From Pandoraea norimbergensis (lineage in GTDB: Bacteria > Pseudomonadota > Gammaproteobacteria > Burkholderiales > Burkholderiaceae), in the NCBI RefSeq assembly GCF_001465545.3, contig NZ_CP013480.3, positions 1,612,001 to 1,676,000 on the forward strand: a stretch of DNA of 64,000 nucleotides. The letters run 5' to 3'. This document shows, one piece after another, positions 35,130-43,888 of the stretch. Each line of letters begins with the position of its first letter. The first letter of the stretch is position 1. Made by a program: the position numbers and the translations under genes. Under the pieces are notes generated by a model. That model saw only the letters and a list, made by a program, of their open reading frames with translations, was not told the DNA's origin and searched no databases.

Positions 35130-36836
35130 ATGCGACTTATCGTTAGCTTGCTTCTGACGCTGCTTCTGGCGGCTTGTGCCAGTACAGCGCCACCTACAGG
35201 TGCATCGAATTCCACGCCCGAAGCGCAGAGCAAGTCGCCGCTCGCATCGAATGCCAAGGGAAAGCAACGCGTGTCGAGCGATCAGACGATCGACCTTGAT
35301 ACCGACTCGATCAATGATCTGGCCTACGGCAGCGACGATGCCGACCTCTGGGCCCGCATCCGCCATGGCTTCTCCATTCCCGATCTCGACACCGATCTCG
35401 CGCAGGACCGCACGCAGTGGTACGCGCAGCGCCCCGAGTACGTGGAGCGCATGATCCAGCGTTCGAACAAGTATCTGTTCCATATCGTTGAAGAGCTTGA
35501 GCGCCGTCATATGCCGACGGAACTCGCGCTGCTGCCGTTCGTGGAAAGCGCCTACAACCCGCAAGCGCTGTCGACGGCCAAGGCCGCCGGCATGTGGCAG
35601 TTCATCCCGAGCACCGGCAAGACGTACAACCTGAAGCAGAACATGTTCCAGGACGAGCGCCGCGACGTGCTCGCCTCGACCACCGCCGCACTGGACTACC
35701 TGTCGAAGCTGTATGCGATGTTCGGCGACTGGCATCTGGCACTGGCCGCGTACAACTGGGGCGAAGGCAATGTGCAACGCGCCATCGACCGCAATCAGGC
35801 GCAAGGGCTGCCGACCGATTATCTGAGCCTGCGCATGCCGACCGAGACGCGTTACTACGTGCCGAAGTTGCAAGCGATCAAGAACATCATTGCGCACCCG
35901 GAGCTCTACAGCGTGAAGCTGCCGGAGATTCCGAATCACCCGTATTTCGTGAGCGTGACCACCAAGCGTGACATCGACGTGGCGCTGGCCGCCAAGCTGG
36001 CCGATCTGCCGCTCGATGAATTCCGCGCACTCAACCCGTCGTTCCGCAAGCCGGTGATTCTTGGTGCTGCCCAGCCGCAGATTCTGCTGCCGTTCGATAG
36101 CGCCGAAGTTTTCCAAAAGCGCCTGAAGGGCTACGACAAACCGCTGTCGAGCTGGACGACGTACACGTCGGCATCGCGCGAGCGCCCGGAAGACGTGGCT
36201 CGCAAGCTCGGCGTCGACGCCGCCGTGATTCGCTCGGTGAACAACATTGCGCCGCGCATGCGTCTGAAAGCGGGCTCCACGCTGCTGGTGCCGCGCTCGG
36301 ATGACATCGACGAAGACATCAGCGCATCGGTGGCGACCAACGCCGTGCTGGCGCTGGAGCCGGATCTGCCCGACACCCGCAAGGTGATGGTGCGTGCCCG
36401 CAAGCACGACACGCTCGCCGCCGTCGCATCGCGCAGCGGTGTCTCCGTGGCCCAGATCAAGGGCTGGAACCATCTGCGCCGCGACGCGCTGACCGGCGGG
36501 CAACTGCTGGTGCTGCATGTGCCGGTGAAGGATGCGTCGCGTGTGATGGCGGCGTCGGCAGCGCCTGCTGCCCCTGTCGCCGCGTCAGCCAGCAAGGATG
36601 ATGACGACGCGCCGCGCACGCGTCTGGTCAAGGGCAAGAACGGCAAGATGATTCGTGTGGTCGACCACCGTCCGGCCGCCAAGACGACCAAGACCGTGGC
36701 ATCGACCGCGAAGGCTGCACCGGCCAAGTCGGCTGGCAAGGCACCGGCAAAGGCGGCGACCAAGACGGTTGCCAAGACGGCAGCTAAGCCGGTCGCCAAG
36801 GCCCCTGCCAAGGTCACGAAGACCGCACAGCGCTAA
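35130..36836 (+). CDS. mltD: Membrane-bound lytic murein transglycosylase D
   Basis: This lipoprotein cleaves peptidoglycan glycan strands to 1,6-anhydromuropeptides. The signal peptide ends in the lipobox LLAAC (Cys16), after MRLIVSLLLTLLLAAC. The SLT domain follows, with catalytic Glu139 in LPFVESAYNPQA and the family stretches GMWQFIPSTGKTYNL and AAYNWGEGNVQRAI. Two LysM modules lie at about residues 345-395 and 425-470. The last ~75 residues are a Lys/Ala/Pro/Thr-rich tail, positively charged and probably disordered, which E. coli MltD lacks in this form. The length of 568 is long for the family mainly because of that tail. It is monocistronic with its own promoter and terminator. Confidence 0.94.
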   Translation: MRLIVSLLLTLLLAACASTAPPTGASNSTPEAQSKSPLASNAKGKQRVSSDQTIDLDTDSINDLAYGSDDADLWARIRHGFSIPDLDTDLAQDRTQWYAQRPEYVERMIQRSNKYLFHIVEELERRHMPTELALLPFVESAYNPQALSTAKAAGMWQFIPSTGKTYNLKQNMFQDERRDVLASTTAALDYLSKLYAMFGDWHLALAAYNWGEGNVQRAIDRNQAQGLPTDYLSLRMPTETRYYVPKLQAIKNIIAHPELYSVKLPEIPNHPYFVSVTTKRDIDVALAAKLADLPLDEFRALNPSFRKPVILGAAQPQILLPFDSAEVFQKRLKGYDKPLSSWTTYTSASRERPEDVARKLGVDAAVIRSVNNIAPRMRLKAGSTLLVPRSDDIDEDISASVATNAVLALEPDLPDTRKVMVRARKHDTLAAVASRSGVSVAQIKGWNHLRRDALTGGQLLVLHVPVKDASRVMAASAAPAAPVAASASKDDDDAPRTRLVKGKNGKMIRVVDHRPAAKTTKTVASTAKAAPAKSAGKAPAKAATKTVAKTAAKPVAKAPAKVTKTAQR

Positions 36837-36896: not shown

Positions 36897-37033
36897 TTTG
36901 TTTTTCCCCTCGGTAAGCGGTTACCGATTCCGGGCACCTGCCTTCGGAAAATTCCCATAAATGCACTGGCTCTCGTTTCCTATGATGGAGACGCGGACGA
37001 TTCCGTTCGTGCCCATGACATAAGGAGTGCTAA

Positions 37034-37216
37034 ATGAATAAGGCAATGGCAACTGCGAAAGAAGTGTCCGAACTCGAAGCGCTGGCCGCCGTGGACGCCA
37101 CGCATGCCACGCGTGGCGTGCTCGGCAACGACGCGGAAGGCATCACGCTCCTGCCGCTGTGCTTCAAGCCGATCTGCATTCCCACGTTGCCGCCGCTGAC
37201 CGGGGGCCATGCCTGA
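37034..37216 (+). CDS. Lasso peptide precursor, pandonodin-like
   Basis: This 60-residue precursor has a 27-residue leader ending HATR and a 33-residue core that starts GVLGNDAEG. Thr sits at leader position -2, as lasso B/C enzymes require. Gly1 and Glu8 of the core can form the eight-residue isopeptide macrolactam ring. The core has an unusually long tail with Cys16 and Cys21 in LCFKPICIP, able to form a second, disulfide-closed ring. This agrees with what I recall of pandonodin, a lasso peptide from Pandoraea with a long disulfide-bearing tail; identity should be confirmed by alignment. AAGGAG precedes the ATG at good spacing. The gene overlaps the B gene by 8 bp. Confidence 0.92.
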
Positions 37217-37970
37217 GGTGTCCGACCCGACACACATCGGAACCGGCGCGTGTGCGGACGCGCCGGTTTTCCGTCATCTGGCACCCGATGTTCACATCGC
37301 GGGTATCGACGGTCACGTCGTGGTGCTCAAGCTCTCGGATGACCGCTACTTCAATCTCTCCTACAAGCACTCGCAGGGGTTGCGCCGATTGATCGGCTGG
37401 CGCGTTGACGGCGATATTCCCGGTGATGTTCTGCTCGCCACGCAGGCGATGTTCGACGCACAAGGCATTCTCGCGCCCGGTGCGCACGCCACGCCCGATC
37501 CCCGTATTGCGAAACGCGATATGTCGCCGCGACTCGGCTTCGACGCATGGCTCGCCATGCCCGCCGACGTGACGCGCGAGTCGCGGGTGCGTGACGTGAT
37601 GCGCGCGGGGTACTGGCTCTGGCAGGCCCAGCGCGTGACGCGGCGCGCGCGCATGCGCGGTGTGGTCGACATGGTGGCGCGCTCGCAGTCCGGCGTTAGA
37701 ACGCAGTACGGCGCGCCTCAGGACTATCTGCCTTACGTGGCCGCGATGCACAGCGCCGCGCTGGTATATCCGCAATGCTCGCCATGTTTGCCGTGGTATG
37801 CCGCGCTCACCGCTTGGTGCGCACGCGACGGCTTGCGCCTGCGGCTGGTGATCGGCGTACAGCGTCAGCCCTTCTATGCGCACGCGTGGACGGAGACCGA
37901 CGCGCGGGTGATTGGCGACGACTTACGCCGACGCGAGCAACTCGCCGTGATCTACGAGACACCGGTCTGA
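37209..37970 (+). CDS. Lasso peptide B protein (leader-recognition domain fused to leader protease)
   Basis: This 253-residue fused B protein has an N-terminal PqqD-like RiPP recognition element (about residues 22-100, containing [20 protein letters not shown]) that binds the leader. The C-terminal transglutaminase-like cysteine protease cuts it off. Cys193 in [10 protein letters not shown] is the likely nucleophile, with His225 in YAHAWTE; an Asp follows in TDARVIGDD. The usual sequence after the Cys is LxRSLAL; here it is LPWYAAL. Its ATG lies inside the last codons of the precursor gene, so the two are translationally coupled. It acts with the cyclase in the cytoplasm to fold and close the lasso. 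Confidence 0.93.
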
Positions 37971-38043
37971 TTTGCGACCGAGTTGGCGTCGCACCGATTG
38001 TTGAATCCCTCAAACATTCAAGCATCCCAGCACGGAGCCATTG

Positions 38044-39801
38044 ATGAAACTTGCCCGCCTGAGACCGGGACCTGCCGAGCGGCACGAACCCTTTCCCGAC
38101 GCCGTGGTGATGCGCGGTCTGGACGGCGTGCCGGTGGCGCGCATTCGTCCCGATGCCGACAGTACGCGGCTGCATTCGAGCGGACAGAGCGAACTGCTGG
38201 CCTGGTACATCAGCGGCACGTTGTTTCTCAAGGAGGATGGCCGGGAGGTCGCCCCGGGCATGGATGTAGCGCGGTTGGCGCTGGAGTCGCCCGAGCGCTT
38301 TGTGGAGCGTTACTGGGGGCACTATCGCGTCATCGTGCATGACCGCTGGCGTGGCACGACGCTGGTGCTCTGCGACCCCTGCGGGCAGTGTCCGACGTAC
38401 TACCGCTTTTGCCGCGATGGCGCCGTGCATGTGGGGGCTGACCCGGCAGCACTGGTCGACGATCATCCCAGCTTCGATAGCCTCGCGCTGAAGTCGTTTC
38501 TCGTGCATGGCGATCTGGGAGGCGTGCAGTGTGCGCTTTACGATGTCGAGCGGCTGCCGCTGGGCCACGCGCTGTGGATCCCGGAGCGCGGTGCGCCACA
38601 AACGCGTGTCGTGTGGTGGCCTGACTGGCGGATGGCCGATCACGATGCGCAGAACGTGGCCTCGGGCGAGGGCCTGTTGCGGCTACTGCGACGTTCGGTG
38701 GAACGTAGTGTCGGCGACCGGCCTGCGGTGCTTGAACTGTCGGGCGGCGTAGAGTCGACCTCGCTCGCGCTGGCACTCGCCGAGTCGGGACGGGCGGACA
38801 CCTGTACGGCGATCAATCATCGCGATCCGTCGTCGCCGTCGAGCGACGAGTCGCATCATGCCGGCAGCGTCGCGCGCCATGTGCGCATGGCCTTCGAGCG
38901 GCTGGATATCGACTGCGCAGCGTTCTCGCCATCGCCGTCGTCGGCAATCCCGCGTCTCGCCCGCCCGGCACTGCATCTGTGCATGCTGGCGCAGCTCGAT
39001 GCCGTGCGTGAGCGGCTGAGTACCTACAGTGGCCATCGGCTGGTGAACGGCCACGGTGGTGATGCCATTTTTCTTGCACCGCCGCCCAATGGGGCATTTC
39101 TCGATGCTTTTGCGGACGGTCAATGGCGCCGTGCATTCAGCGCATGGCGCGATCTGGCAGTGATGCAGCGCTTGCCACTGTGGTGGGTCGCGCAGGGCGC
39201 GTTCGCGCAACTCGGGCAGCGTCATGCGAACCCGGATGCCGCGCTCTCGACGGGGCTGCTCACGCCAGCGGCCCGCATTGCCGATACGCCGCGCACTGAA
39301 CCGTTGGCGTCGGCGTGGCTGTCGCGCTGGGCGTTGCGCGTGCGTCCCGGCAAGCGGGCGCAGGTCCTCGGCATTCTCGGCAACCTGCGCGACGTGGAAG
39401 TGCAACCATCGCTCGCCCCGGCAGGTACGGTATTTCCGTTCCTCACACAGCCCATGGTCGAAGCGGGGTTGAAGATGCCGACCTACCGCCTGTTCAATGC
39501 GATGCATAACCGCCTGCCGCTGCGCCGCGCAGCGTATCTGGCGAGCGGGTTGCCGAATCTCTGGCGGCGTGACAAGGGCGTGTTGACGGGCATGGTGGGG
39601 GCCGGCGCTGCAGCGAATCTGGCCCATGTCGAAGAGGTCTGTCTCGACGGTTATTGCGCCGCATCGGGCTGGATTGACCGCGACGCTTGCCGCCGGGCGA
39701 TCGGACGCGTGGCGCACCATCATCTCGAATCGATGACGACGATCCGCCGGCTGTACGCGATCGAAATGTTCGTACGCGGTTGGCGCGCGGGCGCGGTATG
39801 A
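38044..39801 (+). CDS. Lasso cyclase (asparagine synthetase-like, C protein)
   Basis: This 585-residue ATP-dependent cyclase adenylates the Glu8 side chain of the core and joins it to the new N-terminal amine, forming the isopeptide ring. The C-terminal two thirds is an asparagine-synthase fold with the PP-loop at residues 233-238, reading SGGVES instead of the more common SGGxDS. The N-terminal third corresponds to the glutaminase-like domain of AsnB but lacks the catalytic N-terminal Cys, as is normal for lasso cyclases. The ATG at 38044 has CGGAG upstream; a TTG precedes it directly. A 73 bp gap separates it from the B gene, and it overlaps the exporter by ATGA. Confidence 0.92.
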   Translation: MKLARLRPGPAERHEPFPDAVVMRGLDGVPVARIRPDADSTRLHSSGQSELLAWYISGTLFLKEDGREVAPGMDVARLALESPERFVERYWGHYRVIVHDRWRGTTLVLCDPCGQCPTYYRFCRDGAVHVGADPAALVDDHPSFDSLALKSFLVHGDLGGVQCALYDVERLPLGHALWIPERGAPQTRVVWWPDWRMADHDAQNVASGEGLLRLLRRSVERSVGDRPAVLELSGGVESTSLALALAESGRADTCTAINHRDPSSPSSDESHHAGSVARHVRMAFERLDIDCAAFSPSPSSAIPRLARPALHLCMLAQLDAVRERLSTYSGHRLVNGHGGDAIFLAPPPNGAFLDAFADGQWRRAFSAWRDLAVMQRLPLWWVAQGAFAQLGQRHANPDAALSTGLLTPAARIADTPRTEPLASAWLSRWALRVRPGKRAQVLGILGNLRDVEVQPSLAPAGTVFPFLTQPMVEAGLKMPTYRLFNAMHNRLPLRRAAYLASGLPNLWRRDKGVLTGMVGAGAAANLAHVEEVCLDGYCAASGWIDRDACRRAIGRVAHHHLESMTTIRRLYAIEMFVRGWRAGAV

Positions 39802-41645
39802 CGAGGCAAGCTGGCTGGCAGGCGCTATGTTTTGTGCTGCGAAGGCTCTGGGCGCGCGAGACGCAGACATCGCGTCATCGTGTTTGGGTGGTGATGGCGG
39901 CGCTGGCGGCGGCGTTCATGCTGGCGTTGCGGCTTGTGGCGCCGTGGGTGCTCGGGCTCGCGGTCGATGCACTGACGGGCGAGCGGGCAGTCGGTTATGC
40001 GTTGCCGTTGGCGACGGCCTACGTGGTGCTTTGGTCGGCAGCGGCGATTGGCGAGCGCGGCAAAGACTTGTTGATTCAGCGCGCGATGGAAGACCTGCGA
40101 CGACGTACGGCACTGGGTTATCTGTCGCGGCTTGTCGGCCTGCCGGCGCATCGCGCACGCGAGGTGAATGCGGGACAGACGCTGGATTGCCTCTTCCGTG
40201 TGGAGGTGGCGTTGCCTGTCATCGTGACCGGTCTGGTGTTCGGGTTGCTGCCGCTGGCGGTGCAGGTGCTGGCGACGGGCATCATCCTGATGGTCAACTT
40301 CGGTGCGATGTACGGAGTGTTGCTGGGCGCTACGGTGGTGGCCTATGTGCTGACACTGCGTCCATCGCTTGCCCGTGTGACGCGCCGCGAAGCGCAGGCG
40401 AACGATATCTCTCGTGCCACGATGGGGGCGCTTGCTGACACGCTGACGCAACTCGAATGTGTGAAGACGTTTGCGCAAGAGCCCGCAGAGATCGGCCGAC
40501 TGTCGCAACGCCTGCGCACGCGCTATGTAGCGGCGCTCGCGACGGCGACTACGGCGCAGGTCACGAGTGCGTGTCAGATGGCGATCATGGCGCTCGGGGT
40601 GTCGGCCATGACGCTGCTCGCTGTGCGTGACGTCATGCGCGGCGCGGAACCCGTCGGCACGCTGGTGCAGATCAACGCCTATCTGCTGCAATTCGCGCTA
40701 CCGGCGGCGATGCTGGGCGCGCTGGTGTCGCAAGTGGCGAGAGCGCTGGTCAGTGTTGACGAGCATCTGCGCGATGCCACGAGTGGGCCGATGACGGACG
40801 ACGTGGAAGGCGTGGAAGATGTGGACGCAGCGAAAGAGGCGAACGAGTCGGGACAAGGCGGCGCAACTGCGGCGGCAGGTGCTCTGGCCGTGCCGTCACC
40901 GCGCGCCCCGTGCATCGAACTTGATCAGGTCGGCGTGACGCTGGGTGACGGCACGCCGGTGGTTGCGCGTGTCAGCCTCAGAATTCGTGCCGGAGAATAC
41001 GTGGCAATCGTCGGACCGTCGGGCGCTGGCAAATCCACGTTGTTGCGCCTGATGACAGGGCTCACGTTACCGACGCAGGGGCAGGTGCGCATCGATGGTC
41101 GTGCGCTCAATGGTGTCGCCGCGACGGCACTGCGTCGTGTGACCGGATTCGTCACACAAGACTGCCGGCTGTTCGACCGGTCCGTGTTTGAGAATGTCGC
41201 CTATCGAGCGGGCCTGCTCAATGCAGCGCTTCCCGACGATCCCGCGATTCGCGACGAATTCATGCGTGTGGCGACCCTTGCCGAAGTGCCGGACGTGATT
41301 TCGGTCATGGGACTGTCCGGCGGGGAGCGTCAACGGGTAAACATCGCCCGCGCTCTGTGGGGGCGCCCCCGATGGCTGCTGTTCGACGAACCCACCGCTG
41401 CGCTCGACGCCCTCACCGAAGCCCGCATCCTCAACCGTCTGGCTCACGAACGTGCAGGCGCGACATGCGTGGTCGTGGCCCATCGGCTGGCGGCCATTTG
41501 TCGCGCCGACCGGATTGTCGTGATGGATCAAGGGCATATCGTCGACGTCGGCACCCACTCGGCGCTGCTCGCCCGAGGTGGCCTGTACGCCCGTATGTGG
41601 CAGGCGCAGCAGGCCGATCTCGGGGCCGAAGCCGTGCTTGGCTAA
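39798..41645 (+). CDS. Lasso peptide ABC exporter (D protein)
   Basis: This 615-residue half-transporter exports the mature peptide and provides self-immunity. Six membrane helices fill about residues 25-310. A Gly/Ala/Asp-rich linker (~325-370) follows, then the ATPase domain: Walker A GPSGAGKST with Lys412, signature LSGGERQRV, Walker B WLLFDEPTAALD and the His switch VVAHRLA. Its ATG overlaps the cyclase stop (ATGA at 39798-39801), showing tight coupling. The longer in-frame start at 39687 lies inside the cyclase gene and is not used here. No isopeptidase, kinase or regulator gene accompanies the four-gene unit. Confidence 0.93.
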   Translation: MTRQAGWQALCFVLRRLWARETQTSRHRVWVVMAALAAAFMLALRLVAPWVLGLAVDALTGERAVGYALPLATAYVVLWSAAAIGERGKDLLIQRAMEDLRRRTALGYLSRLVGLPAHRAREVNAGQTLDCLFRVEVALPVIVTGLVFGLLPLAVQVLATGIILMVNFGAMYGVLLGATVVAYVLTLRPSLARVTRREAQANDISRATMGALADTLTQLECVKTFAQEPAEIGRLSQRLRTRYVAALATATTAQVTSACQMAIMALGVSAMTLLAVRDVMRGAEPVGTLVQINAYLLQFALPAAMLGALVSQVARALVSVDEHLRDATSGPMTDDVEGVEDVDAAKEANESGQGGATAAAGALAVPSPRAPCIELDQVGVTLGDGTPVVARVSLRIRAGEYVAIVGPSGAGKSTLLRLMTGLTLPTQGQVRIDGRALNGVAATALRRVTGFVTQDCRLFDRSVFENVAYRAGLLNAALPDDPAIRDEFMRVATLAEVPDVISVMGLSGGERQRVNIARALWGRPRWLLFDEPTAALDALTEARILNRLAHERAGATCVVVAHRLAAICRADRIVVMDQGHIVDVGTHSALLARGGLYARMWQAQQADLGAEAVLG

Positions 41646-41986
41646 CGCGCTTGGTTCGGCTCGCTGGTTGCCCGCGCCCCGAGCGGCTAACCCATCCCCC
41701 CGCGTTCTCCTCGTCAGACTTGGCAATATTCTCCGCGTAATCCCTAGGTTCTACAGCGCCCTGAGCCGCCCCCGGGGTAAGCCTTCCGTAAGCGTCAACG
41801 CGCACACTGAACGTGAGGCATCCTAGGGTGTCCGACGAATTCCATGCCATACCCGCTTTGCTGTCGATACCCGCTCGGTGTATCGACATTGCCGGCTTGA
41901 TCCGGCGCCGCGCGTAGTCCAGTCCTGTGCTGCATTCAGCGAGGGTGCGACGCGCGCGAGCCCACCAAAACATGCAAGGAGACATC
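41646..41986 (+). promoter_or_regulatory. Intergenic region with a spaced pair of CCTAGG motifs before prpE
   Basis: This 341 bp region has no supported gene. It carries CCCTAGG at 41742-41748 and CCTAGGG at 41822-41828, in inverted arrangement 79 bp centre to centre. Such CTAG-centred sequences are rare in GC-rich DNA. They could be activator sites for prpE. No terminator is obvious after the exporter gene. Confidence 0.4.
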
Positions 41987-43888
41987 ATGACTTCGTATGC
42001 GTCGTTTCACGCCCGCTCGGTGACGCCCGAATCGCGCGAGGCGTTCTGGGAGGAACAAGCGCGTCTGATCGACTGGGAGACGCCATTCACCAAAGTGCTC
42101 GATTACGACAAGCCGCCGTTTGCCCGTTGGTTTGTCGGTGGCCGCACCAACCTTTGCCACAACGCGGTCGATCGCCATCTGCCGTCGCGTGGCTCGCAAA
42201 ACGCGCTGATCTGGGTGTCGACGGAAACCGAACAGGAGCGCGTGTACACCTACGACGCGCTGGCCGCCGAGGTCAATCGCATGGCCGCGTCGTTGCAATC
42301 GTTGGGCGTGACGCGCGGCGAGCGCGTACTGATCTACATGCCGATGGTGCCCGAGGCGCTCTTCGCGATGCTGGCCTGCACCCGCCTCGGCGCAATTCAC
42401 TCGGTGGTGTTCGGCGGGTTTGCGTCGGTGAATCTTGCCGCCCGCATTGACGATGCGCGCCCGAAAGTGATCGTGTCTGCGGATGCCGGCTCGCGCAACG
42501 GCAAGGTGGTGCCCTACAAACCGCTGCTGGACGAAGGGATTGCGCTGGCACAAAGCAAGCCGGGCAACGTGCTGCTCATCGACCGTGGCCTCGCGCCGAT
42601 GGATCGGGTCGAAGGGCGCGACGTCGACTATGCGGCCCTGCGCGAGCAGCATCTCGATGCGTTGGTGCCGTGCGAGTGGCTCGAATCTAGCGAGCCGTCG
42701 TACGTGCTTTACACGTCGGGGACGACGGGCAAGCCGAAGGGCGTGCAGCGCGACACGGGGGGCTACGCGGTAGCGTTGGCTTCGTCGATGCAGCACATCT
42801 TCTGCGCGAAGCCGGGCGACACGATGTTCTGTGCGTCAGACATCGGGTGGGTGGTCGGGCATAGCTACATCGTGTATGCGCCGCTGCTCGCAGGCATTGC
42901 CACGGTGATGTACGAGGGCACGCCGATTCGTCCGGACGGTGGCATCTGGTGGCGCATTGTCGAGAAATATCGGGTGACGCAACTGTTCACGGCACCGACG
43001 GCAATTCGCGTGCTCAAGAAGCAGGACCCTGCGTATCTCACGCAATACGATTTGTCTTCGCTGCGGCTGATCTTCCTCGCGGGCGAGCCGCTGGACGAGC
43101 CCACGGCGCGATGGCTGACGGACGGTGTGGGAAAACCTGTGGTCGACAACTACTGGCAGACGGAAACGGGTTGGCCGATTCTTGGGATGGCGCGTGGTAT
43201 TGAGGAACTGCCGAGCAAGCTGGGCTCGCCGGGCAAGGCCGTGTATGGCTATGACGTGAAGCTGGTTGACGAGGTCACCGGCGAAGATTGCGGGCCGAAT
43301 CAGAAGGGCGTGCTGGCCATCGAAGGCCCGCTGCCGCCGGGGTGCATGAGCACGCTGTGGGGCGACGACGCGCGCTTCGTCAAGACGTACTGGGAGACGG
43401 TACCTGGGCGCCAGTTGTATTCGAGCTTCGACTGGGGCGTGCGCGACGACGATGGCTATTACTTCATCCTTGGGCGCACGGACGACGTGATCAATGTGGC
43501 GGGTCACCGGTTGGGGTCGCGCGAGATCGAGGAGAGTATTGCGAGCCATCCGGCGGTGGCGGAAGTGGCGGTGATCGGCGCGCAGGACGCCCTCAAGGGG
43601 CAGGTGGCCATCGCGTTCGCCGTGCTGCGTCAGCCGGCGTTGGCAGAGACGGTGGAGCAGCGGATGGCGCTGGAGGGCGATGTGATGAAGACAGTGGACA
43701 AGCAACTGGGCGCGGTGGCGCGTCCGGCGCGCGTGTACTTCGTGTCGATGCTGCCCAAGACACGTTCGGGCAAGCTGCTGCGCCGAGCGATTCAGGCGAT
43801 CTGCGAGGGCCGCGAGACGGGCGATCTCATCACGTTGGAAGACCCGACGGCGCTGGAACAGGTGCGTGAGGCCGTGCGAGGGAAGTAA
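41987..43888 (+). CDS. prpE: Propionate--CoA ligase / acyl-CoA synthetase
   Basis: This 633-residue AMP-forming ligase activates propionate (and acetate less well) to the CoA thioester, feeding the methylcitrate cycle. Seen motifs are the P-loop YTSGTTGKPKG with the following GVQRDTGGYAVAL typical of PrpE, the adenylate-binding DNYWQTETGW, FDWGVRDDDGYYFILGRTDD with the hinge Asp, and the C-terminal PKTRSGKLLRR with Lys596, the residue acetylated in related enzymes. AAGGAGA stands 8 bases before the ATG at 41987. The rest of the prp operon is not adjacent. Distinguishing PrpE from acetyl-CoA synthetase rests on overall resemblance and is fairly sure. Confidence 0.9.
   Translation: MTSYASFHARSVTPESREAFWEEQARLIDWETPFTKVLDYDKPPFARWFVGGRTNLCHNAVDRHLPSRGSQNALIWVSTETEQERVYTYDALAAEVNRMAASLQSLGVTRGERVLIYMPMVPEALFAMLACTRLGAIHSVVFGGFASVNLAARIDDARPKVIVSADAGSRNGKVVPYKPLLDEGIALAQSKPGNVLLIDRGLAPMDRVEGRDVDYAALREQHLDALVPCEWLESSEPSYVLYTSGTTGKPKGVQRDTGGYAVALASSMQHIFCAKPGDTMFCASDIGWVVGHSYIVYAPLLAGIATVMYEGTPIRPDGGIWWRIVEKYRVTQLFTAPTAIRVLKKQDPAYLTQYDLSSLRLIFLAGEPLDEPTARWLTDGVGKPVVDNYWQTETGWPILGMARGIEELPSKLGSPGKAVYGYDVKLVDEVTGEDCGPNQKGVLAIEGPLPPGCMSTLWGDDARFVKTYWETVPGRQLYSSFDWGVRDDDGYYFILGRTDDVINVAGHRLGSREIEESIASHPAVAEVAVIGAQDALKGQVAIAFAVLRQPALAETVEQRMALEGDVMKTVDKQLGAVARPARVYFVSMLPKTRSGKLLRRAIQAICEGRETGDLITLEDPTALEQVREAVRGK

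Follow-up and report, generated by a model that had tools for sequence, protein, structure and literature searches.

Which peptide does the four-gene lasso operon in this stretch of Pandoraea norimbergensis DNA encode, and is that peptide already known? The stretch analyzed (the window) is 64,000 nt in length and covers positions 1,612,001–1,676,000 of contig NZ_CP013480.3; the P. norimbergensis genome consists of a single contig, 6,167,370 bp long. The same contig has an autoinducer synthase (luxI) gene at contig positions 1418662–1419441 (PF00765, 44.8 bits, cut-off 24), and PMC9355198 prints these same coordinates for ppnI of NZ_CP013480.3. The pan operon is at window positions 37034–41645 and consists of panA, panB, panC and panD, with all four frames open. 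The features of the region, in window positions, are:

35130–36836, plus strand: mltD, the left neighbour, with SLT and LysM domains
36943–37009, plus strand: upstream block, TTCGGAAAATTCCC ... TATGAT ... GATTCCGTTCG, a candidate promoter or regulatory region
37034–37216, plus strand: panA, the 60-aa pandonodin precursor, with its leader at 37034–37114
37115–37213, plus strand: core of panA, 33 residues identical to 6q1x, with Gly1, Glu8, Cys16 and Cys21
37209–37970, plus strand: panB, 253 aa, a predicted leader peptidase, B2/transglutaminase-like
38044–39801, plus strand: panC, 585 aa, an asparagine-synthetase-like lasso cyclase
39798–41645, plus strand: panD, 615 aa, an ABC exporter with Walker A at 406, LSGGE at 506 and Walker B at 527
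41927–43888, plus strand: a prpE-like acyl-CoA synthetase gene, the right neighbour

The first 8 bp of panB are also the last 8 bp of panA, and the panD ATG at 39798 overlaps the panC stop by 4 bp (ATGA). The panC ATG at 38044 is 73 bp past the panB stop. An earlier sequence-only reading had the B, cyclase and exporter genes following one another without gaps and with ATG overlaps; the overlaps are present at the panA-panB and panC-panD junctions, but the 73 bp between panB and panC are a gap. Aligned sequences from upstream of panA, 18 in all (from 16 pan-bearing genomes and two relics), show the upstream block to be conserved. On the far side of it, MltD has a long tail after the LysM domain that is rich in Lys, Ala and Pro (36630–36833), and the protein is between 541 and 576 aa long in 32 genomes.

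The leader of PanA ends in ...DATHATR, which places Thr at position -2, and the core spans Gly1 to Ala33. Lasso precursors typically have Thr at -2, Gly at core position 1 and an acidic residue at positions 7–9. PanA conforms with Thr(-2), Gly1 and the acid Glu8, and its translation confirms the 60-residue precursor with these residues that had been read from the letters. A sequence search shows that 33 of 33 core residues are those of PDB 6q1x_A, pandonodin; a full-length match with 100% identity and an E value of 1.8e-19 is not a chance match. The computed monoisotopic mass of the core with ring and disulfide is 3306.75. The pandonodin paper is said to be that of Cheung-Lee, Cao and Link (2019).

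The letters given for pandonodin in the excerpted table of a review (PMC12427821) are those of the PanA core, and Cys16 and Cys21 are marked there as bonded. Excerpts of PMC12427821 and PMC13352647 describe this bond as a tail-tail disulfide. The PMC13352647 excerpt also gives pandonodin a length of 33 residues with an 18-residue tail, and describes 6Q1X as its solution structure, a threaded lasso with the tail through the ring. The source of pandonodin is P. norimbergensis, and panABCD was expressed in E. coli with about 2 mg/L obtained, as stated in an excerpt of PMC7549694. The species cannot be told from the core by itself, as the exact core is common to three of ten intact operons, that of the window included. 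The encoded product is pandonodin itself and no variant, and the cluster is the published one, very probably in its strain of origin. Of the earlier suggestion of pandonodin or a close variant, the first alternative is the right one, and the system is indeed known; the further remark that the locus of this strain is not known is very likely wrong, given the P. norimbergensis origin in the PMC7549694 excerpt. The finding is real and already known, and novelty is confined to comparative side observations. It arrives again at a natural product and a producer that are both in print, which is a useful check of the earlier reading and little beyond.

PanB matches the lasso_biosyn_B2 model NF033537 (60.5 bits, cut-off 33) and also PF13471, the latter over residues 144–249. 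Residues 1–143 gave no Pfam match at E ≤ 10 and no sign of a B1/RRE part; the "fused B protein" read earlier is shown in part only, through the PF13471 match. PanB residues Cys190, Cys193 and His225 are invariant in ten intact copies. PanC matches Asn_synthase, PF00733 (43.2 bits, cut-off 21), and falls far under the cut-offs of two NCBIfam macrolactam/lasso cyclase models (87 bits against 300, and 21 against 525). The motifs SGGVES (233), GHGGD (336) and RRDKG (508), which are taken to be catalytic as in asparagine synthetases, are all whole in the window copy. The predicted PanC structure has a mean pLDDT of 85.3, and its best matches are beta-lactam synthetase (E 3e-15), the amidotransferase TsnB9 (4e-15) and asparagine synthetase B (5e-14). 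A search of solved structures by sequence found no relative of PanC (best E 0.22) or PanB (0.71). The PF00733 and fold matches uphold the asparagine-synthetase-like cyclase of the earlier reading, with the NCBIfam cyclase cut-offs not reached, and the ABC exporter was also correctly read, as PanD matches ABC_tran and ABC_membrane.

In the proposed biosynthesis, PanB would cut the leader off after Arg(-1), PanC would close the Gly1-Glu8 ring around the tail, and PanD would act as the exporter. As the operon has no gene for a dedicated disulfide-forming enzyme, the Cys16-Cys21 bond probably arises without one. An excerpt of PMC13003496 (2026) describes a fusion precursor in E. coli whose leader was excised by PanB and whose isopeptide bond was formed by PanC.

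The distribution of the operon was analyzed in 32 Pandoraea genomes, one per species. The mltD-to-prpE stretch was taken from all 32, with the window supplying that of P. norimbergensis, and A, B, C and D were mapped on it by tblastn. mltD is present in all 32 genomes and adjoins pan in all 16 that bear it. prpE is downstream of mltD in 30 of the 32 and was not found there in G017 and G029. Genome-level matches number 16 for panC and 14 each for panA and panB. The site has a complete ABCD operon in ten genomes (G000, G002, G004, G006, G009, G015, G019, G022, G024 and G026), an operon with a frame-split cyclase in one (G027), a partial operon in five and no pan genes in 16. The sequence-only reading had proposed comparing the core with published pandonodin and with other Pandoraea genomes; the first comparison gives 100% over 33 residues, and the second gives complete operons with similar cores in 10 of 32. 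The partial loci are L042 in G001, L037 in G005 (P. bronchicola), L038 in G010 (P. communis), L046 in G014 (P. horticolens) and L039 in G018 (putative P. oxalativorans). In G027 (L043), panC lies in two frames that are split near residue 200, which may be a genuine lesion or an artefact of sequencing. Thirteen of the 16 empty stretches were compared with the pan loci of seven genomes (G017, G025 and G030 were left out). In G003 (L033), otherwise with no pan gene, the upstream block and the panA leader survive as relics; a weaker relic, of the upstream region and seen mostly by eye, is present in G031 (L047).

A panC tree (15 sequences, without G027) and a flank tree display the same four groups; the flank tree covers 30 of the 32 genomes, only 21 of which contribute prpE, and support for its deep branches is weak (51, 56 and 61%). 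The trees, partial copies and relics taken together give what appears to be one old operon, vertically inherited and lost piecewise several times. A recent horizontal island was considered and is less likely, since pan occupies one site in all 16 pan-bearing genomes and the two trees agree in their groups. A single site in one genus shows the operon in various stages of its loss. Among the 18 cyclases listed from a protein collection, in a search that scored the best 7993 candidates only, those from other genera are at most 37% identical.

Across the ten complete operons the leader has an omega of 0.325 and the core one of 0.084, with 0.099 for panB, 0.060 for panC and 0.080 for panD; in the flanks of the same genomes it is 0.067 for gloB and 0.043 for mltD. 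The core has a mean pairwise identity of 0.91, the leader 0.80, B 0.78, C 0.85 and D 0.81. There are seven core versions, the published one being present in three genomes. Thr(-2), Gly1 and Glu8 are invariant in all ten complete operons, as are Cys16 and Cys21, both of which are kept in every intact core. A core that is near-constant over seven versions next to a drifting leader is an argument for a specific conserved target. Conservation this strong points to a single conserved target or task more than to diversifying warfare. In the clade without panD (G005, G010 and G014), core omega increases from 0.085 to 0.50 (LRT 15.4, p 9e-5), and the value of 0.50 tested against omega 1 gives a p of 0.044.

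These comparisons bear on two other readings of the window itself. Variants with two to five core changes are present in seven of the ten intact operons, and a product of this kind, a close pandonodin variant from another species or strain, would be conceivable here; the identity of 33/33 core residues rejects it and makes it scarcely credible. The operon could also be silent or decayed in the window strain. Decay is frequent in the genus, with five partial loci and one frame-split cyclase among 16 pan-bearing genomes, and a scan upstream of panA found no sigma-70 consensus pair. Silence or decay is nevertheless very improbable, as the window has four open frames, a conserved upstream block and a PanC with no change at 60 otherwise invariant sites (leave-one-out). 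It is close to certain that the window operon is the pan operon of Pandoraea norimbergensis, with the whole proposed mechanism.

All five partial loci have lost panD and keep a full-length open panC, and none has both core and panB intact. panD is absent in four, and a remnant is present in G001. G001 has panA without the core, with panB and panC open. In G005, panA is full length and has Thr(-2), Gly1, Glu8 and both Cys residues with many other changes, and panB is gone. The PanA sequences of G010 and G014 have Met at -2 and Ser in place of Cys16, and at residue 8 G014 has Asp and G010 has Gly. The panB deletions of these two genomes differ, and His225 is replaced by Asn in G010 and by Arg in G014. 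In G018 neither panA nor panB is left; the upstream block persists despite their deletion and adjoins panC. Other lasso proteases that might serve the orphan cyclases in trans were considered and rejected: in the 32-genome search, no PF13471 member above the cut-off was found outside the pan locus in G005, G010, G014 or G018, and the one match elsewhere in G010 is below the cut-off.

Sixty PanC sites are invariant in the ten intact copies and eight distant homologues. Changes at these sites number one in G001, one in G005, three in G010, three in G014 and four in G018. In a leave-one-out control there are no changes in nine of the ten intact copies and one in the other. Seven further proteins, taken from the database by sequence alone, comprise four without change at these sites, P0017 with one, P0020 (P. 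communis) with four and P0022 with five. The SGGVES, GHGGD and RRDKG motifs are altered in four of the five partial loci: G235D in G001 and G018, D340N and R508Q in G010 and G014, and D510E and K511N in G018. All three motifs are kept in G005 PanC, where the change is E269A.

A codon model of our own, distinct from PAML and using F3x4 with one omega class or two, was fitted to panC. In its two-class form, background omega is 0.061 and that of the five broken lineages is 0.141, on branches that mix time before and after loss (two classes against one: LRT 50, p 1e-12; against omega 1: LRT 429). Taken singly, G001 panC is not distinguishable from the single-omega fit (p 0.11). Four intact control branches have panC omegas of 0.031, 0.022, 0.041 and, in G024, 0.145; given this last value, the raised omega of the broken lineages is not specific to them. 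The cleanest comparison is between G010 and G014, where the panD junction looks common to both by eye. Their panC sequences differ by 28 non-synonymous and 64 synonymous changes (omega 0.137 [0.08–0.21]), and their panB relics by 16 and nine over 96 codons (omega 0.56 [0.26–1.5]); Fisher p is 0.004. The panA omega of this pair is 0.42, but panA is a poor yardstick because omega is already 0.28–0.36 between intact pairs. The neighbouring genes of the pair have omegas of 0.08 (gloB), 0.02 (mltD) and 0.03 (prpE), and panC omega in intact pairs is 0.03 (G004-G009) and 0.10 (G024-G026). With D340N and R508Q in both G010 and G014, panC seems to have remained constrained after the loss of residues kept by distant homologues; 96 codons of one gene in one species pair make this suggestive but no proof.

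The simplest reading of the partial loci is stepwise decay. The alternative is that panC persists in the partial-operon species through a second, non-lasso job. A full-length panC in five of five partial loci, with a complete panD in none, is in its favor, and this retention is not an artefact of a search for C only because each gene from A to D was mapped in every one of the 32 intervals. The omega of the broken lineages is also far from 1, and in G010-G014 panC is well below the panB relics in spite of the common D340N and R508Q. However, an intermediate omega is also expected from recent loss, the broken-lineage value is twice the background with intact G024 alike, and the panB comparison consists of 96 codons from one species pair. 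Invariant residues have changed in all five partial loci and motifs in four. In G027 panA, panB and panD look complete and the cyclase is the only visibly broken gene, and G003 and G013, of the same flank-tree clade, are without any pan gene. A second job is on balance unlikely. Its more specific form is that the PanC of P. communis and P. horticolens, and perhaps of G018 and G001, would be a selected orphan pseudoenzyme with substituted catalytic residues and a new, non-lasso task, following loss of the exporter and of a working precursor or protease; this is somewhat more doubtful still. A literature search found no case of a lasso cyclase with a job outside lasso synthesis; it was a weak search, one part of which covered 15 of 123 papers, and none of those 15 contains the words lasso peptide. 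If orphan PanC were truly selected, it would represent a lasso cyclase with a function outside lasso synthesis.

A further A-B-C cluster is present in G022 (Pandoraea sp. PE-S2T-3), away from pan, with a cyclase 58% identical. Its precursor is one open frame of 123 residues on the minus strand (L071:11978–12346; G022:C37:633977–634345). The frame can be read as two tandem leader-core units, each with Thr(-2), Gly1 and Glu8, and B and C genes come next. The second unit might have its own start at an internal GTG. No PanD-like exporter was found near this cluster among the listed frames of 90 codons or more. The search of the protein collection with the two-core precursor found only its own record, and among 398 genomes drawn from the family there was no other match past residue 62. 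No two-core lasso precursor was found in the titles or abstract openings searched.

A comparison of pandonodin and the window locus shows the same 33-residue core, the same genes (panA, panB, panC and panD) and the same species, and no difference was found. The microcin J25 and capistruin systems (mcj/cap ABCD) have the gene order A-B-C-D, in which B is one protein and D is an ABC exporter. The pan operon has this same order; pandonodin itself differs in having 33 residues with an 18-residue tail. The core sequence of LP2006 differs from that of pandonodin in the table excerpted from PMC12427821. The felipeptin cluster has an oxidoreductase gene, filE, whereas the pan operon has no extra gene; class IV clusters have no common gene beyond A–D, as stated in a PMC9266682 excerpt. 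The likeness of pandonodin to the class IV peptides LP2006 and the felipeptins, as they are described in that same excerpt, is one disulfide within the tail.
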